A stretch of DNA of 51,341 bases from Fidelibacterota bacterium. GTDB taxonomy: Bacteria > Fidelibacterota > UBA2242. Location of the stretch: the NCBI GenBank assembly GCA_018002295.1, contig JAGNGI010000001.1, positions 1 through 51,341 of the forward strand. The letters are read 5' to 3'. The notes beneath the pieces were generated by a model. It was given only the letters and a program-made list of their open reading frames with translations. It was not told the origin of the DNA and did no database searches. The number at the start of each line of letters is the position of its first letter. The stretch's first letter is position 1. Positions 25,876 to 36,340 of the stretch are shown here, piece by piece. Made by a program: the position numbers and the translations under genes.

Positions 25876-27147
25876 TTACTTCATCAGAACCATTTTCTGT
25901 GATTTGGTATAATTACCGGCATTCATCTGGCAGATATAAATTCCGCTGGGGACCGGATTCCCAGAATGATCAGTCCCATTCCAAGTAATGGATTGGTACC
26001 CAGCCGGTTGAGTTTCATTTACAAGTGTGATTATTTCTTTGCCGAGGATATTGTAAATCTTTATAGTTACAGCTGCCTCATCTTTTAAAGCGTATTGGAA
26101 AGTGGTGGTGGGGTTGAAGGGATTGGGATAGTTCTGTGAAAGAGAAAAAATTGTGGGAGTCTCTGTTTCTTTCTTGACTTCTGTGAGACCGGAAATAGAC
26201 CGGTACCAAAGACCGTTTAGCCCGGTGCCCACAAATAAATTGTCCCCGCAAACAGCCATACTGTAATTAAACAGACTGTCGGGCAAGTCCCCGGTAATAT
26301 CCAGCAACTTCATTTCTTGTTTTAATAATAGAAATATTCTTGGTCTTGTAGCAATAAATAATTGTTCACCGTTACTGGCAAATGCTATTATGTACGAACC
26401 TTCATTGAATTGCTGCCAGCTTAATCCAAAATCTGTTGTATAAAATAACCCACCGCCTGAAGAACCGACTCCTGCAAAGATTTTTTTATCGAATAAAATA
26501 AGTCTTTTTATTTGGGGGTATGGACTTGGTTCGGGATAGACTGGCAATCCATTATTCAACGCATTCCATGTATTTCCATAATCCGAAGATCCATAAATCC
26601 CCATCTCTTCAGTACCAACAAAGATAAGAGAATCAAATGCTATAAGTGATTTATTCGTACAACTGACACCGTTCCAAATCTCCGTCCAGGTATTCCCATT
26701 GTCGGGAGACTTCAATACACCAGCAGGACAAACATCGGTTGTCGTTCCAGCATAAAGATTGCTATCACAATATGCCAGCGCAGTAACTCCGACATTAGCA
26801 TAGCATTCCTCCCAGTTGAGGCCCCAGTCGGATGTGCGGAATATGTAACCGCCTTCAAATCCTTCACCGGTAAAAATATAGTCATCGGTAATGACAATAT
26901 CATTGGGATGACTGGCCTGCGAGTTGAAACATTCCGTCCATGAATTGCCGTAATCTTTGGAATAGAAATAACTGACGGCGCTGTCGCTCAGGAGACCGCC
27001 GCCCAGGAAAATCACACTATCCTTTACCGAAATTGCTGAGACAAAACCTTGATTAATCACCGGCGACTGCATCCATTGACCATGAACGACCGGCTGACAA
27101 AAAATGATTGACACAAATATGATAATTATGACTTTTGATTTCAACAT
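25876..27147 (-). CDS. secreted YCF48-like beta-propeller protein with type IX sorting domain
   Basis: A 423-residue exported protein: signal peptide (KVIIIIFVSIIFCQPVVHG), then repeated propeller blades with the sequence theme SKDYGNSWTECF, RTSDWGLNWEEC, SPDNGNTWTEIW, SSDYGNTWNALN and TTDFGLSWQQF. These are BNR/YCF48-type repeats with S-x-D-x-G-x-x-W. The C-terminal 85 residues form a sorting domain that opens FSLSQNYPNPFNPTT and closes with PSGIYICQMNAGNYTKSQKMVLMK, the pattern recognised by type IX secretion. It is therefore surface-attached or released. The next gene upstream is a close paralogue sharing a near-identical 116 bp block. The ligand is unknown. Confidence 0.85.
   Translation of the reverse strand: MLKSKVIIIIFVSIIFCQPVVHGQWMQSPVINQGFVSAISVKDSVIFLGGGLLSDSAVSYFYSKDYGNSWTECFNSQASHPNDIVITDDYIFTGEGFEGGYIFRTSDWGLNWEECYANVGVTALAYCDSNLYAGTTTDVCPAGVLKSPDNGNTWTEIWNGVSCTNKSLIAFDSLIFVGTEEMGIYGSSDYGNTWNALNNGLPVYPEPSPYPQIKRLILFDKKIFAGVGSSGGGLFYTTDFGLSWQQFNEGSYIIAFASNGEQLFIATRPRIFLLLKQEMKLLDITGDLPDSLFNYSMAVCGDNLFVGTGLNGLWYRSISGLTEVKKETETPTIFSLSQNYPNPFNPTTTFQYALKDEAAVTIKIYNILGKEIITLVNETQPAGYQSITWNGTDHSGNPVPSGIYICQMNAGNYTKSQKMVLMK
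26114..26229. repeat. 116 bp block shared with the neighbouring paralogue (copy 1)
   Basis: Matches 27392-27507 at 115 of 116 positions by eye. It codes for the last propeller segment and the ISGLTEVKKETETPTIF linker up to PNPFN. At the 26114 side identity stops abruptly, and the two sorting domains are quite different. Confidence 0.9.
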
Positions 27148-27168
27148 GGCTTTAATCCTTCATGAATT

Positions 27169-28485
27169 TTACTTCATTAAAATAAATTTCCTGGTATTCG
27201 AAAAACTTCCGGCCTGAATATGGTAAAAATAAACTCCGCTGGCAAGATGACTTCCATTGAATTCAACTTCATACGATCCCGTCGGCTTTTCCTCGTTGAC
27301 CAAAGTGACGATCTCTTTGCCAAGAATATCATAGACTTTCAATCTAACCAAACACATTTCAGGTACGGTATATTTTATTTTTGTTGTCGGATTGAAGGGA
27401 TTGGGATAGTTCTGTGAAAGAGAAAAAATTGTGGGAGTCTCTGTTTCTTTCTTGACTTCTGTGAGACCGGAAATAGACCGGTACCAAAGACCATTTAGCC
27501 CGGTGCCGAGAAATAAATTGTCGTCGCATACAGCCATACTGTAATTATATAGACTGTCAGGTAAATCCCCGGAAATATCCATCCACCTCATTTCCTGTTC
27601 AAGTAATACATACACTTTTGTATCCGTATCAGCAAACAAATAATCATTATTTTTCACAAGATTCCTTACCCTTATATAAGATGTTGTGTCCAATCCGTCT
27701 ATATAGTATTTTGTGTCCAATCCGTCATTTAATGTTTGCCAGTTTAAACCATAATCTGTTGAATAAAATACTCCACCGTCTCCAGAAGAATTTGTTATAA
27801 AAATCCTGTTATCAAATAAGACCATACTTCGCACGTTACTATTAGGAGGGAGTCCATTATTCCTCTCTGTCCAGGTATTTCCATAATCCGAAGAGCCATA
27901 GACTCCCGCATTGCCGGTCCCGACAAGAATGAGTGAATCCACGACAACGATTGAAAGAATTCCCCGAGAATCAACCGTCCCATCATTCCAAATCACTGTC
28001 CAGGTATCCCCGTTGTCTGAGGATTTAACTACGTAGTTTCCTCCACAATCTGAAAATGTTCCGGCATAAAGAGCGCCTGCGTAATATATTAAACATCGAG
28101 GGTCGGGATATCCAAACTCTAATCCAAAGCATTCCTCCCAATGGAGTCCCCAGTCGGATGTGCGGAAAATGCAACCGCTTTCTCCTCCTCCTTCAGCGAT
28201 AAAAATATATGTATCCGTAATTACAATAGATCTGGGAATACCGCCTCCCACTGTGATTGTATTGAAACATTCCGTCCATGAATCGCCGTAATCTTTGGAA
28301 TAGAAGTAACTGACGGCGCTGTCGCTCAGGTTACTACCGCCGAGAAAAATTACGCTATCTTTTATAGTTATTGCAGAGATAAATCCCTGATCGATCACCG
28401 GCGACTGCATCCATTGCCCCTGAACTACCGGCTGATAAAAAAAGATTGACAGAAGTATTATTTGAATAATTTTAGATTTTAACAT
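27169..28485 (-). CDS. secreted YCF48-like beta-propeller protein with type IX sorting domain (paralogue)
   Basis: A 438-residue tandem paralogue of the gene at 25876-27147, with the same signal peptide type (KIIQIILLSIFFYQPVVQG) and the same blade order (SKDYGDSWTECF, RTSDWGLHWEEC, SSDNGDTWTVIW, SSDYGNTWTERN, STDYGLNWQTL). The sorting domain starts with the identical FSLSQNYPNPFNPTT but continues as KIKYTVPEMCLVRLKVYDILG and ends ASGVYFYHIQAGSFSNTRKFILMK, clearly a different domain version. GGAGGG lies before the ATG. The two genes are 21 bp apart and probably co-transcribed. Confidence 0.85.
   Translation of the reverse strand: MLKSKIIQIILLSIFFYQPVVQGQWMQSPVIDQGFISAITIKDSVIFLGGSNLSDSAVSYFYSKDYGDSWTECFNTITVGGGIPRSIVITDTYIFIAEGGGESGCIFRTSDWGLHWEECFGLEFGYPDPRCLIYYAGALYAGTFSDCGGNYVVKSSDNGDTWTVIWNDGTVDSRGILSIVVVDSLILVGTGNAGVYGSSDYGNTWTERNNGLPPNSNVRSMVLFDNRIFITNSSGDGGVFYSTDYGLNWQTLNDGLDTKYYIDGLDTTSYIRVRNLVKNNDYLFADTDTKVYVLLEQEMRWMDISGDLPDSLYNYSMAVCDDNLFLGTGLNGLWYRSISGLTEVKKETETPTIFSLSQNYPNPFNPTTKIKYTVPEMCLVRLKVYDILGKEIVTLVNEEKPTGSYEVEFNGSHLASGVYFYHIQAGSFSNTRKFILMK
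27392..27507. repeat. 116 bp block shared with the neighbouring paralogue (copy 2)
   Basis: Partner of 26114-26229, with one mismatch seen (GACCA here, GACCG there). The flanking propeller sequence at the higher-coordinate side remains similar but diverged; the sorting-domain side does not align at DNA level. Confidence 0.9.
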
Positions 28486-28530
28486 TGCTTTTACCCTCCA
28501 TGAATTTTACTTCATTAAAAAATTGCGTCG

Positions 28531-29511
28531 CTATTCTCCATACCGATAAACATTGCCACTCTCGCTCAATACCCATCCGTTGGAATTATTTACAAAGGAG
28601 AGGCTTACGAGTTTTTCGCCTTCGTCTACCCGATATTGTTCCTGCCATGAATCACCGCCATCGGATGAATAATAGATTGCCCTTTCACCCATGACCCAGC
28701 CTTCATTTTTATTGAAGTAAATCCCATTCAAACTGCTATCAGGAAGAGTAGACTTGTAATACCAGTTATTGCCGCCATCGTCAGAATGATAGACTGAGGT
28801 GTTCGAACAAAACCAGCCGTTTTGTTCATCCGTAAAATAAATGTCATTGATAGAAGAAATATAGCCACATGAGTCGGCCTCAACCTGCGCTGTTGACCAG
28901 GTTACCCCGCCATCCGTTGATAGATAAATATTATTTGCTAAATCAGCAAACCATACCTTGTTTGCCACATTAGTGACGGACGAAAAAAAATTGGTAAAAT
29001 GAAGCGATGAAGCCAATAAAGAGAATCTTGCGCTATCCACATTAAAAGTATATCGGGTTACTATAAGAGGATAACTTGACCTTGACCAGAATGCTATTAC
29101 ATTTTCTCTATCAATAAAAAATATTTCTTTAGTGGATGCTGCCCAGATAGCTAAATAACCAAAAAGATCAACATAATTCCATGAGGTTCCCCCATTAATA
29201 GTATAATAAGCTGCAATTAGTCCCGTTGCCCAACCGTATTGCTTGTCGAGAAAATGAACAGTAACTAGATCGCGGTTACCAGAATTCTGAAGTTCCCAAC
29301 TTTTGCCGCTATTACTGGTATGAAATATTTGATCAGATTCCTCAACCAGCCATCCTTCATTGGCATCGATGAAAAAAATGTCTTTATATATACCGCTATC
29401 AGGCAAGGTACAACATAGATTCCATGTAGGCGTTTTATCCGGCTCGGTTGGACCACAGCTAAAAAGTAACAACAAAATGAGAGGTATTGAAATAAACATT
29501 ATTGACTTCAT
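28531..29511 (-). CDS. YCF48-like beta-propeller lipoprotein
   Basis: I start it at ATG 29511, with GAAAGG 8 bases upstream, giving 326 residues; an upstream ATG at 29565 adds a charged stretch before the signal. MKSIMFISIPLILLLLFSCGP is a lipoprotein signal with the cysteine at about residue 18. The body has propeller repeats: FFIDANEGWLVEESDQIFHTSNSGKSW, FLDKQYGWATG, YLSTDGGVTW, FTDEQNGWFCSNTSVYHSDDGGNNW and YYSSDGGDSWQEQY. This is the YCF48/HCF136-like fold. There is no sorting domain, so it is a membrane-anchored relative of the two secreted neighbours downstream. The ligand is unknown. Confidence 0.82.
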   Translation of the reverse strand: MKSIMFISIPLILLLLFSCGPTEPDKTPTWNLCCTLPDSGIYKDIFFIDANEGWLVEESDQIFHTSNSGKSWELQNSGNRDLVTVHFLDKQYGWATGLIAAYYTINGGTSWNYVDLFGYLAIWAASTKEIFFIDRENVIAFWSRSSYPLIVTRYTFNVDSARFSLLASSLHFTNFFSSVTNVANKVWFADLANNIYLSTDGGVTWSTAQVEADSCGYISSINDIYFTDEQNGWFCSNTSVYHSDDGGNNWYYKSTLPDSSLNGIYFNKNEGWVMGERAIYYSSDGGDSWQEQYRVDEGEKLVSLSFVNNSNGWVLSESGNVYRYGE

Positions 29512-29641
29512 TGCATAAACCTTTCTTTGTTTTAATGTTCGATTTAGTTTATACATTTCAATCAACTAAATCAATAGCATTGTTTTGATTCACTTGGAGA
29601 TGGAAAATTGTTTGAAATAAGAGATTAAAAAAAGAGCCAAG

Positions 29642-29845
29642 ATGAATCAGAATCATAAACGACACCCAGCCAGCAAGAAGGTCGAGATTTTACGAAAGCA
29701 CCTGGAGAACCATCCCGAACATTCGGGACATTAGTGAGATAGCCCGTCGCTATGGAATAAATCCCAACTTAATCCATAAGTGGAAGAAACAGTTATTTGA
29801 GGGTAAAATAGAACAACGACTGGAAGAACGGCAAAAAAAGTTAGA
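29642..29845 (+). pseudogene. IS3-family OrfA transposase remnant
   Basis: Reads MNQNHKRHPASKKVEILRKHL, then hits a stop after a small palindrome (29713-29728). In the shifted frame it continues ISEIARRYGINPNLIHKWKKQLFEGKIEQRLEERQKKLDQA. Together these are a recognisable helix-turn-helix OrfA of IS3-like elements, broken by a frameshift. The downstream OrfB is missing here; a matching OrfB tail lies at 36010-36340 on the other side of the cassette array, on the same strand. No terminal inverted repeats were identified. Confidence 0.75.
29713..29728. repeat. palindrome TCCCGAA/TTCGGGA inside OrfA remnant
   Basis: Perfect 7 bp arms with a CA centre, exactly where the OrfA reading frame breaks. 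The flanking transposase sequence reads through if it is removed with a frame adjustment, so it looks inserted. Confidence 0.6.
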
Positions 29846-29857
29846 TCAAGCCGCCGA

Positions 29858-29886: not shown

Positions 29887-29993
29887 CAGGAAATCATAAA
29901 AATTTATCCTTATTTGAAAAGGGGAGAAAATTCCATTTCCTTATGAACCGAGACATTGGGAGTTACCGTATCGTGAGGTCGTATCGCTGGGTC

Positions 29994-30022
29994 TTGACAA
30001 TCAGATAATAAATAGTTAAAAT
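29994..30022 (+). promoter_or_regulatory. strong promoter-like sequence pointing into the cassette array
   Basis: TTGACA (29994-29999), 17 bases, then TAAAAT (30017-30022): a nearly ideal housekeeping promoter, about 115 bp upstream of the first cassette boundary. In known integrons a Pc promoter at the array head drives the cassette genes, and this one has the right position and direction. Between it and the boundary no gene is seen. Confidence 0.6.
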
Positions 30023-30136
30023 ATAACAGTTATGGAAATATACAGGTTAAGGGGGAAAGTGTTTGTTTATAGAGAAAGTTCTAAGTTTCTTAATAGAGAA
30101 ACCTGTTTGGAAGATTGAAGTGATGGATAAACATAT

Positions 30137-30143
30137 GTTAGGC
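30137..30143 (+). other. left recombination point of the cassette array (GTTAGGC)
   Basis: GTTAGGC fits GTTRRRY and is the exact complement of the start of the first cassette's attC (GCCTAAC, 31269). The 100 bases upstream lack the L-box pairing found in the three attC sites, so this is a remnant attI or a secondary integration point, not another attC. Confidence 0.65.
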
Positions 30144-30188
30144 AAATATTTAGATTGACGTTATTAATTTAAAAATTGGAGGTTAAAA

Positions 30189-31238
30189 ATGGACTTAAAA
30201 GATCATCTTAAACAGATTAATGATAAAATCAATAAGTTTAAGGATTCAATTCAAACCGAAGAAGCTACAAAAAATGCTTTTATCATGCCTTTTATCAATG
30301 CTCTCGGATATGATATTTTCAATCCACAAGAAGTTGTACCTGAATTTGTAGCTGATATTGGTTCTAAAAAAGGTGAAAAGGTAGATTATGCAATTTTAAA
30401 AAACAATGACCCAATCATCTTGATTGAATGCAAGCATTGGAAAGAGGATTTAGATATTCATAGCACTCAACTCCTAAGATATTTTAACACAACAAAAGCA
30501 AAATTTGCCATTCTTACAAACGGTATAAATTACAGGTTTTATACTGATCTGGAAGAGCCAAACAAAATGGACGAAAAACCATTTCTTGATATTAATATGC
30601 TTGAATTAAAAGACACCCAGATAGAAGAACTTAAAAAGTTTCATAAATCTTACTTTGACATTGATAATATTATCAATACAGCAAGTACTTTAAAATATTC
30701 AAACGAGATTAAAGTCCTTTTAAGCAATGAATTTAAACAACCAACTGAAGATTTCATCAAATTTTTCATCAAAAATGTTTATAGCGGTATGGCAACTAAA
30801 AAAGTAATTAATCAATTCACAGAAATTGTAAAAATATCTTGCCAACAGTTTTTAAGTGATTTAATTACAGAACGATTAAAAACCGCTTTAGATAAGGAAA
30901 AAGAGACAGAACCTAAAATAGCTGGAGACCAATTGAAGGATAGTGCGATCGAAACGACCTCAGAAGAAATAGAAAGTTATTACGTTATAAAAACAATTCT
31001 TAGACAAGAAATTGAAAGCAATCGTATTTATTATCGTGATTTTCAAAAGTTTTTTAGCATATTGATTGACGATTCAGTTAGAAATACTGTTTGCAGATTA
31101 TATTTGTCAGGTTCAGTAAAGCAAATTGTATTTATCGATGAAAATAAAAATGAAATAAAGTATCAAATAAATTCAGTTGATGACATATTTCAATATTCTG
31201 AGCAACTAAGAAAAATTGCTAAATCTTTTATAAAGTAA
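30189..31238 (+). CDS. cassette 1: HsdR N-terminal-type PD-(D/E)XK protein
   Basis: A 349-residue protein preceded by TTGGAGG 7 bases before the ATG. The N-terminal half is the type I restriction HsdR_N nuclease domain: TEEATKNAFIMPFINALGYDIFNPQEVVPEF, then KGEKVDYAIL and IILIECKHW, giving the catalytic D, E and K. It lacks the helicase motor of true HsdR. The second half is helical and charged (IRREI-like segment YYVIKTILRQEI) and ends with a small beta domain, FIDENKNEIKYQI. Stand-alone proteins of this type are common and are often found near defence genes; their action is not known. Its attC starts 30 bp after the stop. Confidence 0.8.
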   Translation: MDLKDHLKQINDKINKFKDSIQTEEATKNAFIMPFINALGYDIFNPQEVVPEFVADIGSKKGEKVDYAILKNNDPIILIECKHWKEDLDIHSTQLLRYFNTTKAKFAILTNGINYRFYTDLEEPNKMDEKPFLDINMLELKDTQIEELKKFHKSYFDIDNIINTASTLKYSNEIKVLLSNEFKQPTEDFIKFFIKNVYSGMATKKVINQFTEIVKISCQQFLSDLITERLKTALDKEKETEPKIAGDQLKDSAIETTSEEIESYYVIKTILRQEIESNRIYYRDFQKFFSILIDDSVRNTVCRLYLSGSVKQIVFIDENKNEIKYQINSVDDIFQYSEQLRKIAKSFIK

Positions 31239-31268
31239 AATAGTAAAAAATGAAACGGATTAATTTTT

Positions 31269-31398
31269 GCCTAACCATCGCGTTGAGTCAACGCCTTGGG
31301 CTGTGGCATGGATTTGAGATTGGACGAGTTTTTGGAAAGTTTGAGAAAAGAAAAAAGGGGCGCTGCTCCTCGGCGTGGCTCACGCTTGTTTGTTAGAT
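31269..31398 (+). other. attC site 1 (130 bp)
   Basis: Starts GCCTAAC (RYYYAAC) and ends GTTAGAT (GTTRRRY). Inside, GCGTTGAGTCAACGCC pairs with GGCGTGGCTCACGC with an unpaired extra A, the extrahelical base typical of attC. The 70-base centre is similar in length and content to the centres of attC 2 and 3 (for example GATTTGAGATTGGACGAG). The terminal TTAGAT belongs to cassette 2. Confidence 0.87.
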
Positions 31399-31426
31399 TT
31401 ATATGAAAATATATATTAGGTGTCAT

Positions 31427-33889
31427 ATGAAAAAATCAGTAAAAGTGTATTTTATTCTCATAATATTTTGCACCTCATATCTATTCTCACAAGATGGGTG
31501 GATTGTTCAAAACAATGGAACAACAGCCACATTGACTGGGATTTGTTTTAGTACGGCAGATACAGGATATATTGTTGGCTATAGTGGAACAGTATTACAT
31601 ACAACCAATCAGGGAAAAAACTGGATTCCTATTGACCTGCAAACAACTATACCCCTGAAAGATGTTGCGTTTAATAGTTCCAGACAGGGAATTATTATCG
31701 GTGGTGATTTTGGAGGGTATCCAAAATGGTATTCGACGTCTGATGGTGGACAATCATGGACATTTGGTTCCCTAACAACCTGGCTCTATTATGCCGTTGA
31801 TTACACCGATGATGTTATTACAGCAGTGGGCTACATGGGAATTATTAAACGAAGTTATGATAATGGGGTTACCTGGATTTCAAAGTCTTCGGGTATTTGG
31901 CCTGCTCCCTCTCAATATAGTGGCATATGTTTTATTGACAGCGATACCGGCTTTGTCGTTGGAGGTGATGGAATAATTATCTATACTGAAAATGGCGGAG
32001 ATGTCTGGACCCAACAAAACAGTAATATTACGACAGGTTTAATAGGAATCGATTTCACCGATACAAATACTGGAATGGTTGTTGGAGTAAACGGTACGAT
32101 TTTAAAAACGACCGATGCCGGAAATACCTGGACTCAACTAGTTTCTGGTACTGATCTATGTTTATATGATGTGGTAATGATAAATAAAAATAAAGCGATC
32201 GCTATTGGAAATGGAGGAACAATATTATGCACCATTAATGGTGGAGAGACCTGGACTCAACAGGAGTGTCCTGTTACGGAGGATCTATTTTCAATATGTG
32301 CAATTGATGATAGCACTTTATTTATTATTGGTGATAACGGAACGATATTATTTACCAACGATGGCGGTGAGATTGCATCTCCGGAAATACCTGAATTGAT
32401 GGATCCTGAGGACAACTCAGTTAATTTACAAACAAATGTGACCCTTAGCTGGTGTTCAAGCATTCATGCCAGTTCTTATGAAGTCCAGATCGCATACTGC
32501 GATGATTTTAGTGATATTTATTTAGATACAACGGTGGTCGGCGATACGACATTTCAACTTTATCATTTAAGTGCCGGCACAACCTATTTCTGGCGCGTCC
32601 GGGCAAAAAATATTTCTGGTAACAGCGATTGGACCAGTCCACCACGGCAATTCACTACAATTGAAGATATCACCTGGTATTGGGAAAAAATCAATTTTCC
32701 TGGTCAGGATGGAATAAAACAATTAATTGCCGATTCAAGTGGCGGTATTATAGCAGTGGTTAATGATGCTTTATATCACAGTATTTTCTATCGCTCAGTT
32801 GATATTGGTAATACATGGGACAATACCGGAGAAGCATCGGATTTGCATAGCTATTTTACTTTATCTGGGAGAAATTATATATTCGCTCAAGGTCCACAAC
32901 AAACTGGAGCAACTGGAGAATCGATTTGGCGGTCTAATGATTTTGGGAAAACCTGGGAAATGGTACATTTTGGAGACTATGCCGCTGATGTCTATAAAAC
33001 CAAAGGTAATAGATTAGGGCATTTATATATATTATATAACAAAGCAGTAGAGCCAAAATTTTATTTGAAATTTTCTTTAGACTACGGAAACCATTGGAAA
33101 TATTCCACGGTATCTTGGTCTGAGGATTGGTATTCTATGCATTATATTGATTTTTCGGTGATCGACAGTTCTCACATTTTCGTAAGTCGTAACAATTGTC
33201 TGTCTTTAACCACAGATGATGGTATAAGCTGGGATACACTATTAGTCATAAGTGAAAACGACTATATAAAGAGTATTACTATTAATAGATTTAATCAAAT
33301 ATTTGCTATTTGTGACAGCAGTGGGGTATTCAGATCAACTGATTATGGACAAAACTGGGATAATATAGGAATCTCCGATACTAAACTCACTTCGTTCAGT
33401 TTTATTGGAAGTGATACAATCATTGCAGTGAGTGCAGACCAGGGTATTTTCAGTTCATTTGATAACGGAGATCACTGGATTCAAAGAAATTCGGGATTAT
33501 CAAATTTCAATATTTGTGCCATATCCATTGATAAAGGCAATAGTGTATATATTGCAAATGATGATGGATTGTATCGGAACTCTGCGCTCTGGGTAAATCC
33601 GGTAGAAGAAGATTTAAAAATTCCTGATAAATTCATACTAAAACAAAACTATCCTAATCCGTTTAATTCATCTACTACAATTCGGTTTACATTGCCAAAT
33701 GAAGATAAAGTGACCGTATCTGTTTTTGATATTCGTGGTCAGTTTATCAGTAATCTTCATAACGGTCAACTAAACAAGGGATCGCATAAATTCTTTTGGA
33801 ATGCTTCATATCTGAGCAGCGGTATTTATTTTTGCTGTGTTCAAATTGGAAACCGAACCTATTCACAAAAAATGCTATTAATTAAGTAA
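31427..33889 (+). CDS. cassette 2: large secreted YCF48-like beta-propeller protein with type IX sorting domain
   Basis: The start at ATG 31427 (AGG about 7 bases upstream) gives 820 residues; ATG 31403 would add eight. Signal peptide KKSVKVYFILIIFCTSYLFS. The first third is a YCF48-type propeller with blades like GTVLHTTNQGKNW, WYSTSDGGQSW, IIYTENGGDVW, ILKTTDAGNTWTQL and ILCTINGGETW. A fibronectin-type segment follows near residue 320 (PELMDPEDNSVNLQTNVTLSW to TYFWRVRAKN), then a second propeller (WRSNDFGKTWEM, FRSTDYGQNWDN, FSSFDNGDHW). It ends with FILKQNYPNPFNSSTTIRF and SSGIYFCCVQIGNRTYSQKMLLIK, a sorting domain. A type IX-secreted protein of this size is a most unusual integron cargo. 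Three chromosomal relatives lie just upstream on the other strand. Confidence 0.85.
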   Translation: MKKSVKVYFILIIFCTSYLFSQDGWIVQNNGTTATLTGICFSTADTGYIVGYSGTVLHTTNQGKNWIPIDLQTTIPLKDVAFNSSRQGIIIGGDFGGYPKWYSTSDGGQSWTFGSLTTWLYYAVDYTDDVITAVGYMGIIKRSYDNGVTWISKSSGIWPAPSQYSGICFIDSDTGFVVGGDGIIIYTENGGDVWTQQNSNITTGLIGIDFTDTNTGMVVGVNGTILKTTDAGNTWTQLVSGTDLCLYDVVMINKNKAIAIGNGGTILCTINGGETWTQQECPVTEDLFSICAIDDSTLFIIGDNGTILFTNDGGEIASPEIPELMDPEDNSVNLQTNVTLSWCSSIHASSYEVQIAYCDDFSDIYLDTTVVGDTTFQLYHLSAGTTYFWRVRAKNISGNSDWTSPPRQFTTIEDITWYWEKINFPGQDGIKQLIADSSGGIIAVVNDALYHSIFYRSVDIGNTWDNTGEASDLHSYFTLSGRNYIFAQGPQQTGATGESIWRSNDFGKTWEMVHFGDYAADVYKTKGNRLGHLYILYNKAVEPKFYLKFSLDYGNHWKYSTVSWSEDWYSMHYIDFSVIDSSHIFVSRNNCLSLTTDDGISWDTLLVISENDYIKSITINRFNQIFAICDSSGVFRSTDYGQNWDNIGISDTKLTSFSFIGSDTIIAVSADQGIFSSFDNGDHWIQRNSGLSNFNICAISIDKGNSVYIANDDGLYRNSALWVNPVEEDLKIPDKFILKQNYPNPFNSSTTIRFTLPNEDKVTVSVFDIRGQFISNLHNGQLNKGSHKFFWNASYLSSGIYFCCVQIGNRTYSQKMLLIK

Positions 33890-33895
33890 AATTGC

Positions 33896-34028
33896 ATCTA
33901 ACCATTGGCTGGAGATAACGGCTTGAGCTATTCGATGAATTTGAAGTTTGACGATTTTGGAGGAGATTTTAGGGAAGTGCAAGAAAATCACTCCGAAACC
34001 CGCCGTGCCTTAGCCTTGCCCGTTAGGC
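33896..34028 (+). other. attC site 2 (133 bp)
   Basis: Starts ATCTAAC and ends GTTAGGC. ATCTAAC is the exact complement of GTTAGAT at the head of cassette 2, and the terminal TTAGGC is complementary to the start of attC 3. The inner arms (GGCTGGAGATAACGGC and GCCGTGCCTTAGCC) pair imperfectly with extrahelical bases. It begins 6 bp after the stop codon of the cassette gene. Confidence 0.88.
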
Positions 34029-34046
34029 TTATAAAAAGGAAATTTT

Positions 34047-35177
34047 GTGACTAAGGGAGACGTTGGATCATTAGGAGAAGAGTTAGTTCAAAATTTTTTT
34101 GATAATAATTTCTCAAAAGTATTTTCATTCTTTAGACCTACAACATCTGATCGCGAACAAGTTGCAGATTTATTAGTTTGGATGAACAGATTTGTTTTCC
34201 TTATAGAAGTAAAAACCCGGGATCAAGGAATCGCATCTATTGAATCTTGGAGTAAATCTCGGATTGAACAAGCAAGAGATCAATTAGTTAGAAATTTTAA
34301 TAGGATAAAATCGAATGAAAAGATTAATATCCATAATAATTATTACAACATACAGCTCTTATCTGATGGTTTATCAAGCATAATTGGTATAATAATCTTA
34401 GTCACAGATGAAGGATTTTATGTCGCTCCAGGTAAAATAGTTACTGATATATACAATCAAGAGTTTCCTATACATGTATTTACTATGAAAGATTTAGAAA
34501 AAATGATTATTGAGATTGATACTGTATCAGACTTTTTATATTATGTATCTGATCGAAAAAAATATTTAGAAATAGCAGATATATCTCTGAACTCAGAGAT
34601 GAATGCTATCGGGTATTATAAAGCACATAATAATGCTTTCCCAGTTCAAGCAACTGATTTTAGAACTAATAATTATTGGGAATTGTATAAGCAAAATTTT
34701 ACAAATGAAATTGAATTACGAAATAGACATAATCTTAAGTCAGGATGGATTGATAAACTAGAGGTCTTATTCGTTAAAAATAGAAAATTATATGAAGGTA
34801 TACCGCTTGGTCTTTACTATGCATGGGAGTTAGGTTCGATTAGTAGACGTGAAAGAGCGTATTTAGGTGAAAAGATTGAAAGCGTTCAGGATTGGTTTAA
34901 TGATGGTCATTTATCAAGACGATTTGCATGGCTCAATAGCATATCGGGTAACTGGATCGTTTTTTTCTTTTCTATAGGTAATGAAAAAGATATTGAAAAA
35001 GGCTTGATTAGATTGTGCCGACTAAAGCTTATTAAAGAAATGTATTTTAACTCTTTTAAATATGGTGTTTATGGTCTTGCTTTTCAAGTAAGTTCTTTAT
35101 ATCCTCATAGATTATTAGGTGTTTGTCTGCCTACATTATTGGCGTTGATGATAATATTCGTAATAGTTTTCATTTAG
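34047..35177 (+). CDS. cassette 3: PD-(D/E)XK nuclease-like protein with C-terminal membrane segment
   Basis: A 376-residue protein starting with GTG, supported by AAAAGGAA six bases upstream and only 19 bases after the cassette boundary. The N-terminal domain has the nuclease order GSLGEELVQNFF, EQVADLLVW and FLIEVKTRDQG (E, D, then E-x-K), resembling NERD or restriction-type folds. The middle is not recognised (for example GLYYAWELGSISRRERAYLGEKIESVQDW). The last 20 residues are a hydrophobic helix (LPTLLALMIIFVIVFI), suggesting a membrane anchor. A nuclease fold at the membrane could act on incoming DNA, but this is conjecture. No relative was recognised by name. Confidence 0.7.
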   Translation: MTKGDVGSLGEELVQNFFDNNFSKVFSFFRPTTSDREQVADLLVWMNRFVFLIEVKTRDQGIASIESWSKSRIEQARDQLVRNFNRIKSNEKINIHNNYYNIQLLSDGLSSIIGIIILVTDEGFYVAPGKIVTDIYNQEFPIHVFTMKDLEKMIIEIDTVSDFLYYVSDRKKYLEIADISLNSEMNAIGYYKAHNNAFPVQATDFRTNNYWELYKQNFTNEIELRNRHNLKSGWIDKLEVLFVKNRKLYEGIPLGLYYAWELGSISRRERAYLGEKIESVQDWFNDGHLSRRFAWLNSISGNWIVFFFSIGNEKDIEKGLIRLCRLKLIKEMYFNSFKYGVYGLAFQVSSLYPHRLLGVCLPTLLALMIIFVIVFI

Positions 35178-35257
35178 AAATCTCGGATGCAATATCTGAA
35201 TGGAGTGATCAGAAAGGCTATAATGGTATTGATATTGATGAATTCCCTAAAAAATAA

Positions 35258-35389
35258 GCCTAACCATTTGATGGAGGCAACGAGGTTAGCTGTTCGACAA
35301 ATCCAAGATTTTCGACTTTTAAAAGGAGTTGTGAAAAGTGAAGGTTTACTACATCGTTTCACCTCGTGCCTCAGCCTTGTTCGTTATGC
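35258..35389 (+). other. attC site 3 (132 bp)
   Basis: Starts GCCTAAC, complementary to GTTAGGC at the head of cassette 3, and ends GTTATGC. TGGAGGCAACGAGG pairs with CCTCGTGCCTCA with one extrahelical A. It shares CTAACCAT, GGAG, AACG and TGTTCGA with attC 2 at matching positions. It lies 80 bp after the stop of the cassette 3 gene; translation across it in the plus frame is an artefact. Confidence 0.88.
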
Positions 35390-35408
35390 AGTATTAAAAG
35401 GAGCTAAT

Positions 35409-35918
35409 GTGAAAAGTAAAATAATAATCTTTACGACTTTACTTTTTATAACTTCTTGTACTGATCAATCTGATAAAGAAATAAACGGAAGAAAAGAAGT
35501 TGAGCAAATAATAAAAATCCATTATAAATATGACTTTGCTAATGAAATCAATACCTTTAATAAAACATGTACAAAGGATTTAGTTTTAGGTGGAGTTATT
35601 ACGATGGATTATTGGTTTCAGTTGGAAGAACAGGATACAATAATTAAAGTTATAGAAGAGATAGACTTTTTCAATTTACCAGATACTCTTTCCTATCAAC
35701 CTGAAGACTCTATTTCAGTGGTAATCGAACCTGATCCGGGGATTCAATCCTTGAGAATTAATTATAATAATCAGGATAAGACAGTTTATTGGTATATTGT
35801 CAATAGTTTTCCATCTGAATATGAAATAATATTACGGATAACGACCTTATTAGAAGAAATATTACATTCGGATCCGGAATATCAATCATTACCTGAACTG
35901 ATTGGTGGGTATATTTAA
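35409..35918 (+). CDS. cassette 4: small lipoprotein of unknown function
   Basis: Starts at GTG 35409 with AAAAGGAG five bases upstream, 26 bases after the cassette boundary; the frame is open further upstream, but that part is attC 3. The 169-residue product has a lipoprotein signal (KSKIIIFTTLLFITSC). The mature part is acidic: KEVEQIIKIHYKYDFANEIN, then VIEEIDFFNLPDTLSYQPEDSISVVIEPDPG and TLLEEILHSDPEYQ. I do not recognise the family. No attC follows: the expected GCATAAC is absent before the IS remnant, so the cassette looks truncated on its right side and is probably locked in place. Confidence 0.65.
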   Translation: MKSKIIIFTTLLFITSCTDQSDKEINGRKEVEQIIKIHYKYDFANEINTFNKTCTKDLVLGGVITMDYWFQLEEQDTIIKVIEEIDFFNLPDTLSYQPEDSISVVIEPDPGIQSLRINYNNQDKTVYWYIVNSFPSEYEIILRITTLLEEILHSDPEYQSLPELIGGYI

Positions 35919-36009: not shown

Positions 36010-36340
36010 ATTCTGACCGATAATAGCTAGGACTTCCAACCATCCCTATGAACTATGTCTGGAATTGTCGGATATTGAACATCGTAATCCCGCCTGGGCG
36101 GGATGCCATCCGCAAACCAATGGTTTTGTAGAACGATTCAATCGTACCGTCCTAAATGAATTTTTCCGTCCGGCTTTCCGAACTAAAATGTACGAATCAG
36201 TCAAAGCTTTATAAAAAGATATAGATATATGGCTGAGAGAATACAATGAACAAAGACCCCAACGGGGTTACCGCAACATGGGCAAACGCCCAATTGATCG
36301 CATCAATGAATATTTGAAAATTGTTTCGCCAGAAGGTTAA
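36010..36340 (+). pseudogene. IS3-family OrfB transposase remnant (integrase core end)
   Basis: Reads TILTDNS (with the second catalytic aspartate), a TAG stop, a frameshift near 36040, then HPYELCLELSDIEHR, a GC-rich palindrome, HPQTNGFVERFNRTVLNEFF (with the catalytic glutamate), another stop at 36212-36214, and WLREYNEQRPQRGYRNMGKRP to a final TAA. This is the C-terminal half of a DDE transposase, clearly dead. It marks the right border of the cassette array; the OrfA part is at 29642-29845. Confidence 0.82.
36087..36104. repeat. palindrome ATCCCGCC/GGCGGGAT inside OrfB remnant
   Basis: Perfect 8 bp arms around a TG centre, inserted in frame between EHR and HPQTNG of the integrase core, where relatives have only a few residues. 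Same style as 29713-29728 and 29858-29886. Confidence 0.65.

Follow-up and report, generated by a model that had tools for sequence, protein, structure and literature searches.

A cassette array in a Fidelibacterota genome that appears to be an integron without its integrase

Integrons are described as a single platform that consists of one integrase gene (intI), one attI site and one array of cassettes. The stretch of DNA analyzed here (the window, 51,341 nucleotides of contig JAGNGI010000001.1 from the Fidelibacterota assembly GCA_018002295.1) had been read, from its letters alone, as holding an array of integron cassettes without an integrase in an FCB-type genome. The question that this locus raises is how cassettes come to stand in such a place: as what is left of an integron, as cassettes that strayed to a secondary site, or as an ordinary row of genes with palindromes between them. 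The FCB assignment itself is borne out by the placement of RpoB, which falls in the FCB group beside KSB1, Calditrichota and Chlorobi, as a separate lineage.

The three attC sites are all located on the plus strand, each directly 3' of a plus-strand gene: attC1 at 31269-31398 (130 nt; R'' GCCTAAC, R' GTTAGAT), attC2 at 33896-34028 (133 nt; R'' ATCTAAC, R' GTTAGGC) and attC3 at 35258-35389 (132 nt; R'' GCCTAAC, R' GTTATGC). The sequence-only reading had listed three plus-strand sites of 130-133 bp that start with RYYYAAC and end with GTTRRRY; the strand, the lengths and all three starts agree with this description, but the ends do so at attC1 and attC2 only, GTTATGC of attC3 having a T at position 5. 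GTTATGC is a common R' form among the sites of relatives. When aligned, the three sites have the organization of attC: R''/R' boxes on the outside, then an additional short stem, then L''/L' boxes forming an L stem, in which GAGNNA-[A]-CGNN pairs with its partner around an unpaired A, and an extended variable center. Among the three window sequences alone, 5 pairs of the named attC structure are already altered on both sides. In computed folds, the canonical attC fold differs from the minimum-energy fold in most forms, with no consistent strand preference, and a scan of the window against Rfam gives no match.

A covariance model built from the three window sites (R1) matches, in the source genome at E up to 1, only these three sites, which is circular, so that the independent support for attC comes from the relatives, from covariation and from the matching of cassette ends. 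R1 matches 12 of the 16 same-family genomes, the best match outside the source genome having E=3e-26, and a model broadened with the sites of relatives (R2) matches 15 of the 16, with 36 sites in genome G006, 22 in G015 and 20 in G008. With these models, the covariance-model check that had been put forward yields strong attC matches, those in other genomes included. At other IntI loci of the phylum, the family attC model mostly has no match, as expected for a family-specific model. Across 73 family attC sites, the stems score 0.433 for covariation; with shuffled partners the score falls to 0.161, and with slid partners it does not exceed 0.094. Of the 21 stem pairs, 17 are changed on both sides.

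The starts of cassettes 1-3 were originally noticed to complement the starts of their own attC sites, and in the window this complementarity is exact in three cases of three. When the cassettes of relatives are included, 32 of 44 cassettes match their own end at all four variable positions, whereas shuffling (10,000 rounds) yields 2.6 on average and 10 at the most, in line with the original claim that chance would not produce such a pattern. For the neighboring R' box, which is part of the cassette that follows, full agreement with the same attC is seen in only 3 of the 44. Matching of this kind, between the two ends of one cassette, is the pattern that would be expected from a circular cassette intermediate.

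The cassettes are all on the plus strand. Cassette 1 spans 30138-31392 (the start of the array, initially set at 30137, has to be moved one base further in) and its gene (30189-31238) encodes an HSDR_N-domain endonuclease-like protein of 349 aa (Pfam PF04313, E=2e-17). This protein, in which the HSDR_N domain is solitary, shows ~53% full-length identity to 'endonuclease' proteins of Porphyromonas phages, and a relative with 33% identity forms the first cassette after a leader (see below) in G015. Cassette 2 (31393-34022; gene 31403-33889) encodes a beta-propeller protein (Ycf48/BNR) of 828 aa (Pfam PF14870, E=2e-28), with a type IX secretion signal at the C-terminus (PF18962, E=6e-13; TIGR04183), through which the protein suits this sort of host. 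Just to the left of the array, the region 25876-29565 encodes three propeller-like proteins of the type IX-secreted kind, two of which (423 and 438 aa) resemble each other while the third is on the minus strand, and the cassette 2 protein is similar in kind to these. Cassette 3 (34023-35383) contains a gene, from 34047, for a weakly recognized NERD nuclease-like protein (Pfam PF08378, E=4e-4, just under the cut-off), for which no plasmid relative was found. The frame of this gene (34047-35257) is broken near 35120-35150 and the continuing frame stops at 35257, directly 5' of attC3; the break marks either a pseudogene or a sequencing error. Cassette 4 (35384-35918) is incomplete: its lipoprotein-like gene (35409-35918) is followed by no further covariance-model match and by no GCATAAC after 35918, so that attC3 is the last site. 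The proteins of cassettes 1, 3 and 4, the three that were tested, have no match among defense-system models.

The lack of an integrase, as originally claimed, holds beyond the array: a genome-wide search detects no integron integrase over the curated cut-off of TIGR02249 in the source genome, a 2.2 Mb draft that is 94% complete, so that an intI may lie on a piece missing from the assembly. The window itself has no intI with the extra segment that would make the integron complete. The best candidate, a tyrosine recombinase on contig C65, was considered as a hidden IntI and rejected, given that it is devoid of model positions 180-233, the part that contains the IntI-specific segment; this recombinase passes a XerA-type model and has relatives in family genomes both with and without IntI. 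Of 149 genomes of the phylum, 39 encode an IntI.

The head of the array, at 29945-30143, was missed in the sequence-only reading; it comprises the 3' end of a small gene, orfX, a promoter and an attI core. The orfX tail (29945-30013, plus strand) consists of the last ~23 codons and shows 74% identity over 23 aa (tblastn, E=1e-6) to orfX of G015; the rest of orfX and intI are absent 5' of the array. A Pc-like cassette promoter, TTGACA-17-TAAAAT, is predicted on the plus strand at 29994-30022, with 11 of 12 consensus positions in a consensus scan, and is conserved across the dispersed leader copies of relatives. The leader/attI unit extends, on the same strand, over 29987-30146 and is matched by a sequence model of the leader (R3) with E=2.8e-23 in the source genome, this copy being part of the training set of the model. 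The putative attI core is TAAACATATG^TTA, in which base 30137 is the crossover G, and its R' box, GTTAGGC, complements GCCTAAC, the R'' of attC1. When examined for the components of an integron, the window accordingly contains a putative attI ahead of the first cassette and a predicted cassette promoter. The region 5' of cassette 1 was also considered as a plain IS remnant, an assignment that was rejected because DNA comparison identifies the leader: the segment 29952-30152 recurs in the family, including between intI and the first attC of the G015 integron. The order on one strand is promoter, attI, three cassettes closed by attC and a fourth one truncated ahead of its attC. The array proposed from the letters is integrase-less indeed, but it has kept its head, which consists of the promoter, attI and what remains of orfX.

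Most leader copies contain a short open frame just 3' of the -10 box, such as MEIYRLRGKVFVYRESSKFLNRETCLED in the window, which carries repeated GTTTCT/AGAAAC blocks (29900-30146 in the window; loci L052, L186, L187 and L194 in relatives). The short ORF of attI1 aids cassette expression, and the frame in the leader resembles it.

The complete integron of G015, which has a leader of the window type, shows what may have stood upstream. There, intI (10378-9434) is followed by orfX (9421-9086), a small gene of 112 codons in the same orientation, by the leader (9115-8907), and then by a RelB/YafQ toxin-antitoxin cassette, an attC, the next cassette and another attC, in a single direction throughout. 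The intI-orfX order is seen at loci L052, L051 and L284; besides G015, it is shared by G006, by a further genome from the order and by public loci, those of KSB1 and a few others. In G008 (L049, 5830-6090 of G008:C38), the leader promoter is located directly before intI, and the intI frame replaces the attI part.

More widely, the leader is a dispersed repeat of the family. With an E-value limit of 0.001, R3 detects copies in 13 of the 16 family genomes; with a limit of 1e-8, the number is 12 of the 16, and the remaining 133 genomes of the phylum have none. At a limit of about 1e-10, 12 copies are counted in G015, 9 in G006 and 7 in G013, on different contigs, and each of these three genomes encodes one full-length IntI. 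The attC and leader models were partly trained on loci that were later counted with them, and for this reason the copy counts lean on end matching, on the break in conservation and on covariation as much as on E-values. Across 27 leader copies, conservation is high up to the crossover GTT (2.0 bits) and amounts to ~0.1-0.6 four to eight bases further on; the 26 first genes behind leader copies are all different save two related pairs. Model-recognized attC sites follow at least eight leader copies, and in 11 of 29 copies the R'' 7-mer predicted from the copy's own attI is found directly behind the first gene, compared with a mean of 1.6 and a maximum of 7 in 5,000 shuffles; most of the remaining copies have no recognizable attC behind them and may be worn-out units. 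The stop of conservation at GTT, the varied first genes and the attC or R'' sequences together indicate that the copies followed by such sequences are putative docking sites holding cassettes, in some cases single ones with an attC that would have drifted. Many copies sit at the ends of contigs, as would be expected because assemblies tend to break at repeats; MAG contigs may be misassigned, which is considered less likely because the leader is limited to the family.

Some leader copies occur in rows of two or three, ~0.8-4.7 kb apart, with genes between them (L254, L251, L261, L188 and L200). The truncated copies L186, L187 and L189 in G006 and L049 in G008 have in common a left edge, TGGAATAAG, inside orfX, which hints at the copying of one truncated unit. 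The second leader copy of the source genome (G000:C46:37641-37805) has lost the attI core and has no attC behind it.

On both sides, the array is flanked by fragments of IS3-type transposases in the plus orientation: a remnant of the first frame (HTH_Tnp_1) at 29724-29849 on the left (Pfam PF01527, E=4e-6) and a remnant of the second frame (rve_3) at 36017-36338 on the right (Pfam PF13683, E=6e-5 and 0.02 for two pieces, both under the cut-off). Remnants similar to the right-flank piece are present elsewhere in the family; in a search, no undamaged copy of this IS and no empty site turned up, only other remnants. Judging from position alone, loss of intI with IS3-type insertions is probably the simplest reading.

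Taken together, the sequence features make it very likely that the locus is an integron that lacks intI but has attI, a promoter and cassettes. Under this reading, an integron integrase would have captured the cassettes singly at attI, cutting the folded attC and joining it to attI at G^TT; transcription from the head promoter would run into the first cassettes. The intI gene and most of orfX would have stood upstream, oriented as in G015, and would then have been lost, probably with the IS3-type insertions; the cassettes of the window would now be mobile only if an integrase acts from elsewhere.

The competing explanations fare differently against these observations. That the locus is an ordinary operon-like row of genes with chance palindromes between them is suggested by the location of all four genes on one strand, and strict-pattern matches at 8-9 of 10 stem pairs do arise in shuffled sequence at a low rate; this explanation is, nevertheless, refuted virtually beyond doubt by own-end matching, by the homologous sites family-wide and by covariation. 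Furthermore, the cassette genes do not appear as conserved neighbors in relatives, an arrangement that the sequence-only reading had named as evidence against itself. If, instead, an off-target integrase had put cassettes into an IS remnant, that is, into an attG-type or other secondary site without an integron platform, IS3 remnants on both flanks would be natural. CALINs are known to arise in this way (PMC8618304), and insertion at attG has been published as a route (Loot et al. 2024, as cited in PMC11023631). Such a site would, however, carry neither a promoter+attI unit nor an orfX tail, whereas a 160-base unit of this kind and the orfX tail, in common with the G015 integron, are located exactly before cassette 1. 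The presence of the promoter, the attI core and the orfX tail argues for an integron that lost intI rather than for stray cassettes, which we regard as quite improbable.

A further possibility bears on the history only: the promoter+attI unit might have been copied to this locus from a master integron, so that intI was never there. In favor of such a satellite are the many units per family genome with one IntI each, and the left edge shared by the truncated orfX tails of the G006 copies and G008; on the other side, the left edge of the window itself lacks the shared motif, and the source genome has just one other leader copy, a decayed one. This history is a real possibility, although somewhat on the improbable side.

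With respect to the family as a whole, the many scattered units and, usually, one IntI per genome suggest that one integrase serving many docking sites is likely to be the normal state. The fuller proposal, which we put at nearly even chances, is a distributed integron, in which one integrase would act in trans to capture and move cassettes at up to about 12 scattered docking sites, each a promoter+attI unit copied as a repeat. If true, the combination of one intI with many attI+promoter units per genome would break the single-platform picture; more than one captured gene at a time could occupy the place next to a strong promoter, and the many attI units would offer natural replicates for studies of attI evolution. 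The window also illustrates a way in which arrays without intI may form, with the platform truncated and attI and the promoter kept.

In the IntegronFinder definition, a CALIN is a cluster of attC sites (two or more, spaced by up to 4 kb) without an integron integrase next to it. Like a CALIN, the window contains three attC sites on one strand at spacings below 4 kb, and no intI is present either close to them or in the rest of the draft genome. Unlike a CALIN, it retains a recognizable attI, a promoter and the tail of the intI-adjacent gene, and is, in effect, a decapitated integron. Many phyla, Bacteroidetes/Chlorobi among them, are reported to have integrases, and CALINs equal complete integrons in frequency (PMC9024848, PMC8618304); in Treponema, IntI is transcribed towards attI (PMC3607928). 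Given these reports and the IntI found in the phylum, the window array is a further case of the known intI-less integron/CALIN type. The family resembles integrons of the Treponema type (PMC3607928) in that intI is co-oriented with orfX in G015 and G006, and in G015 with the cassettes as well, but it differs in having orfX between intI and attI and multiplied attI units, with the window devoid of intI. The long attC sites (~130 nt), alike within the lineage, and the toxin-antitoxin cassettes of relatives recall the sedentary chromosomal integron of Vibrio; in contrast to the one long array behind one attI in Vibrio, the family has short arrays or single cassettes behind many dispersed attI units. 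Similarly to cassettes inserted at attG, those of the family are scattered over the genome, but each scattered cassette stands behind a conserved promoter+attI unit of ~130-230 bases. No account of many promoter+attI units with few integrases was found in the literature searched, which was open-access, with subscription papers largely outside it, and it is these dispersed attI units of the family that we rate as what is new compared with the known systems.
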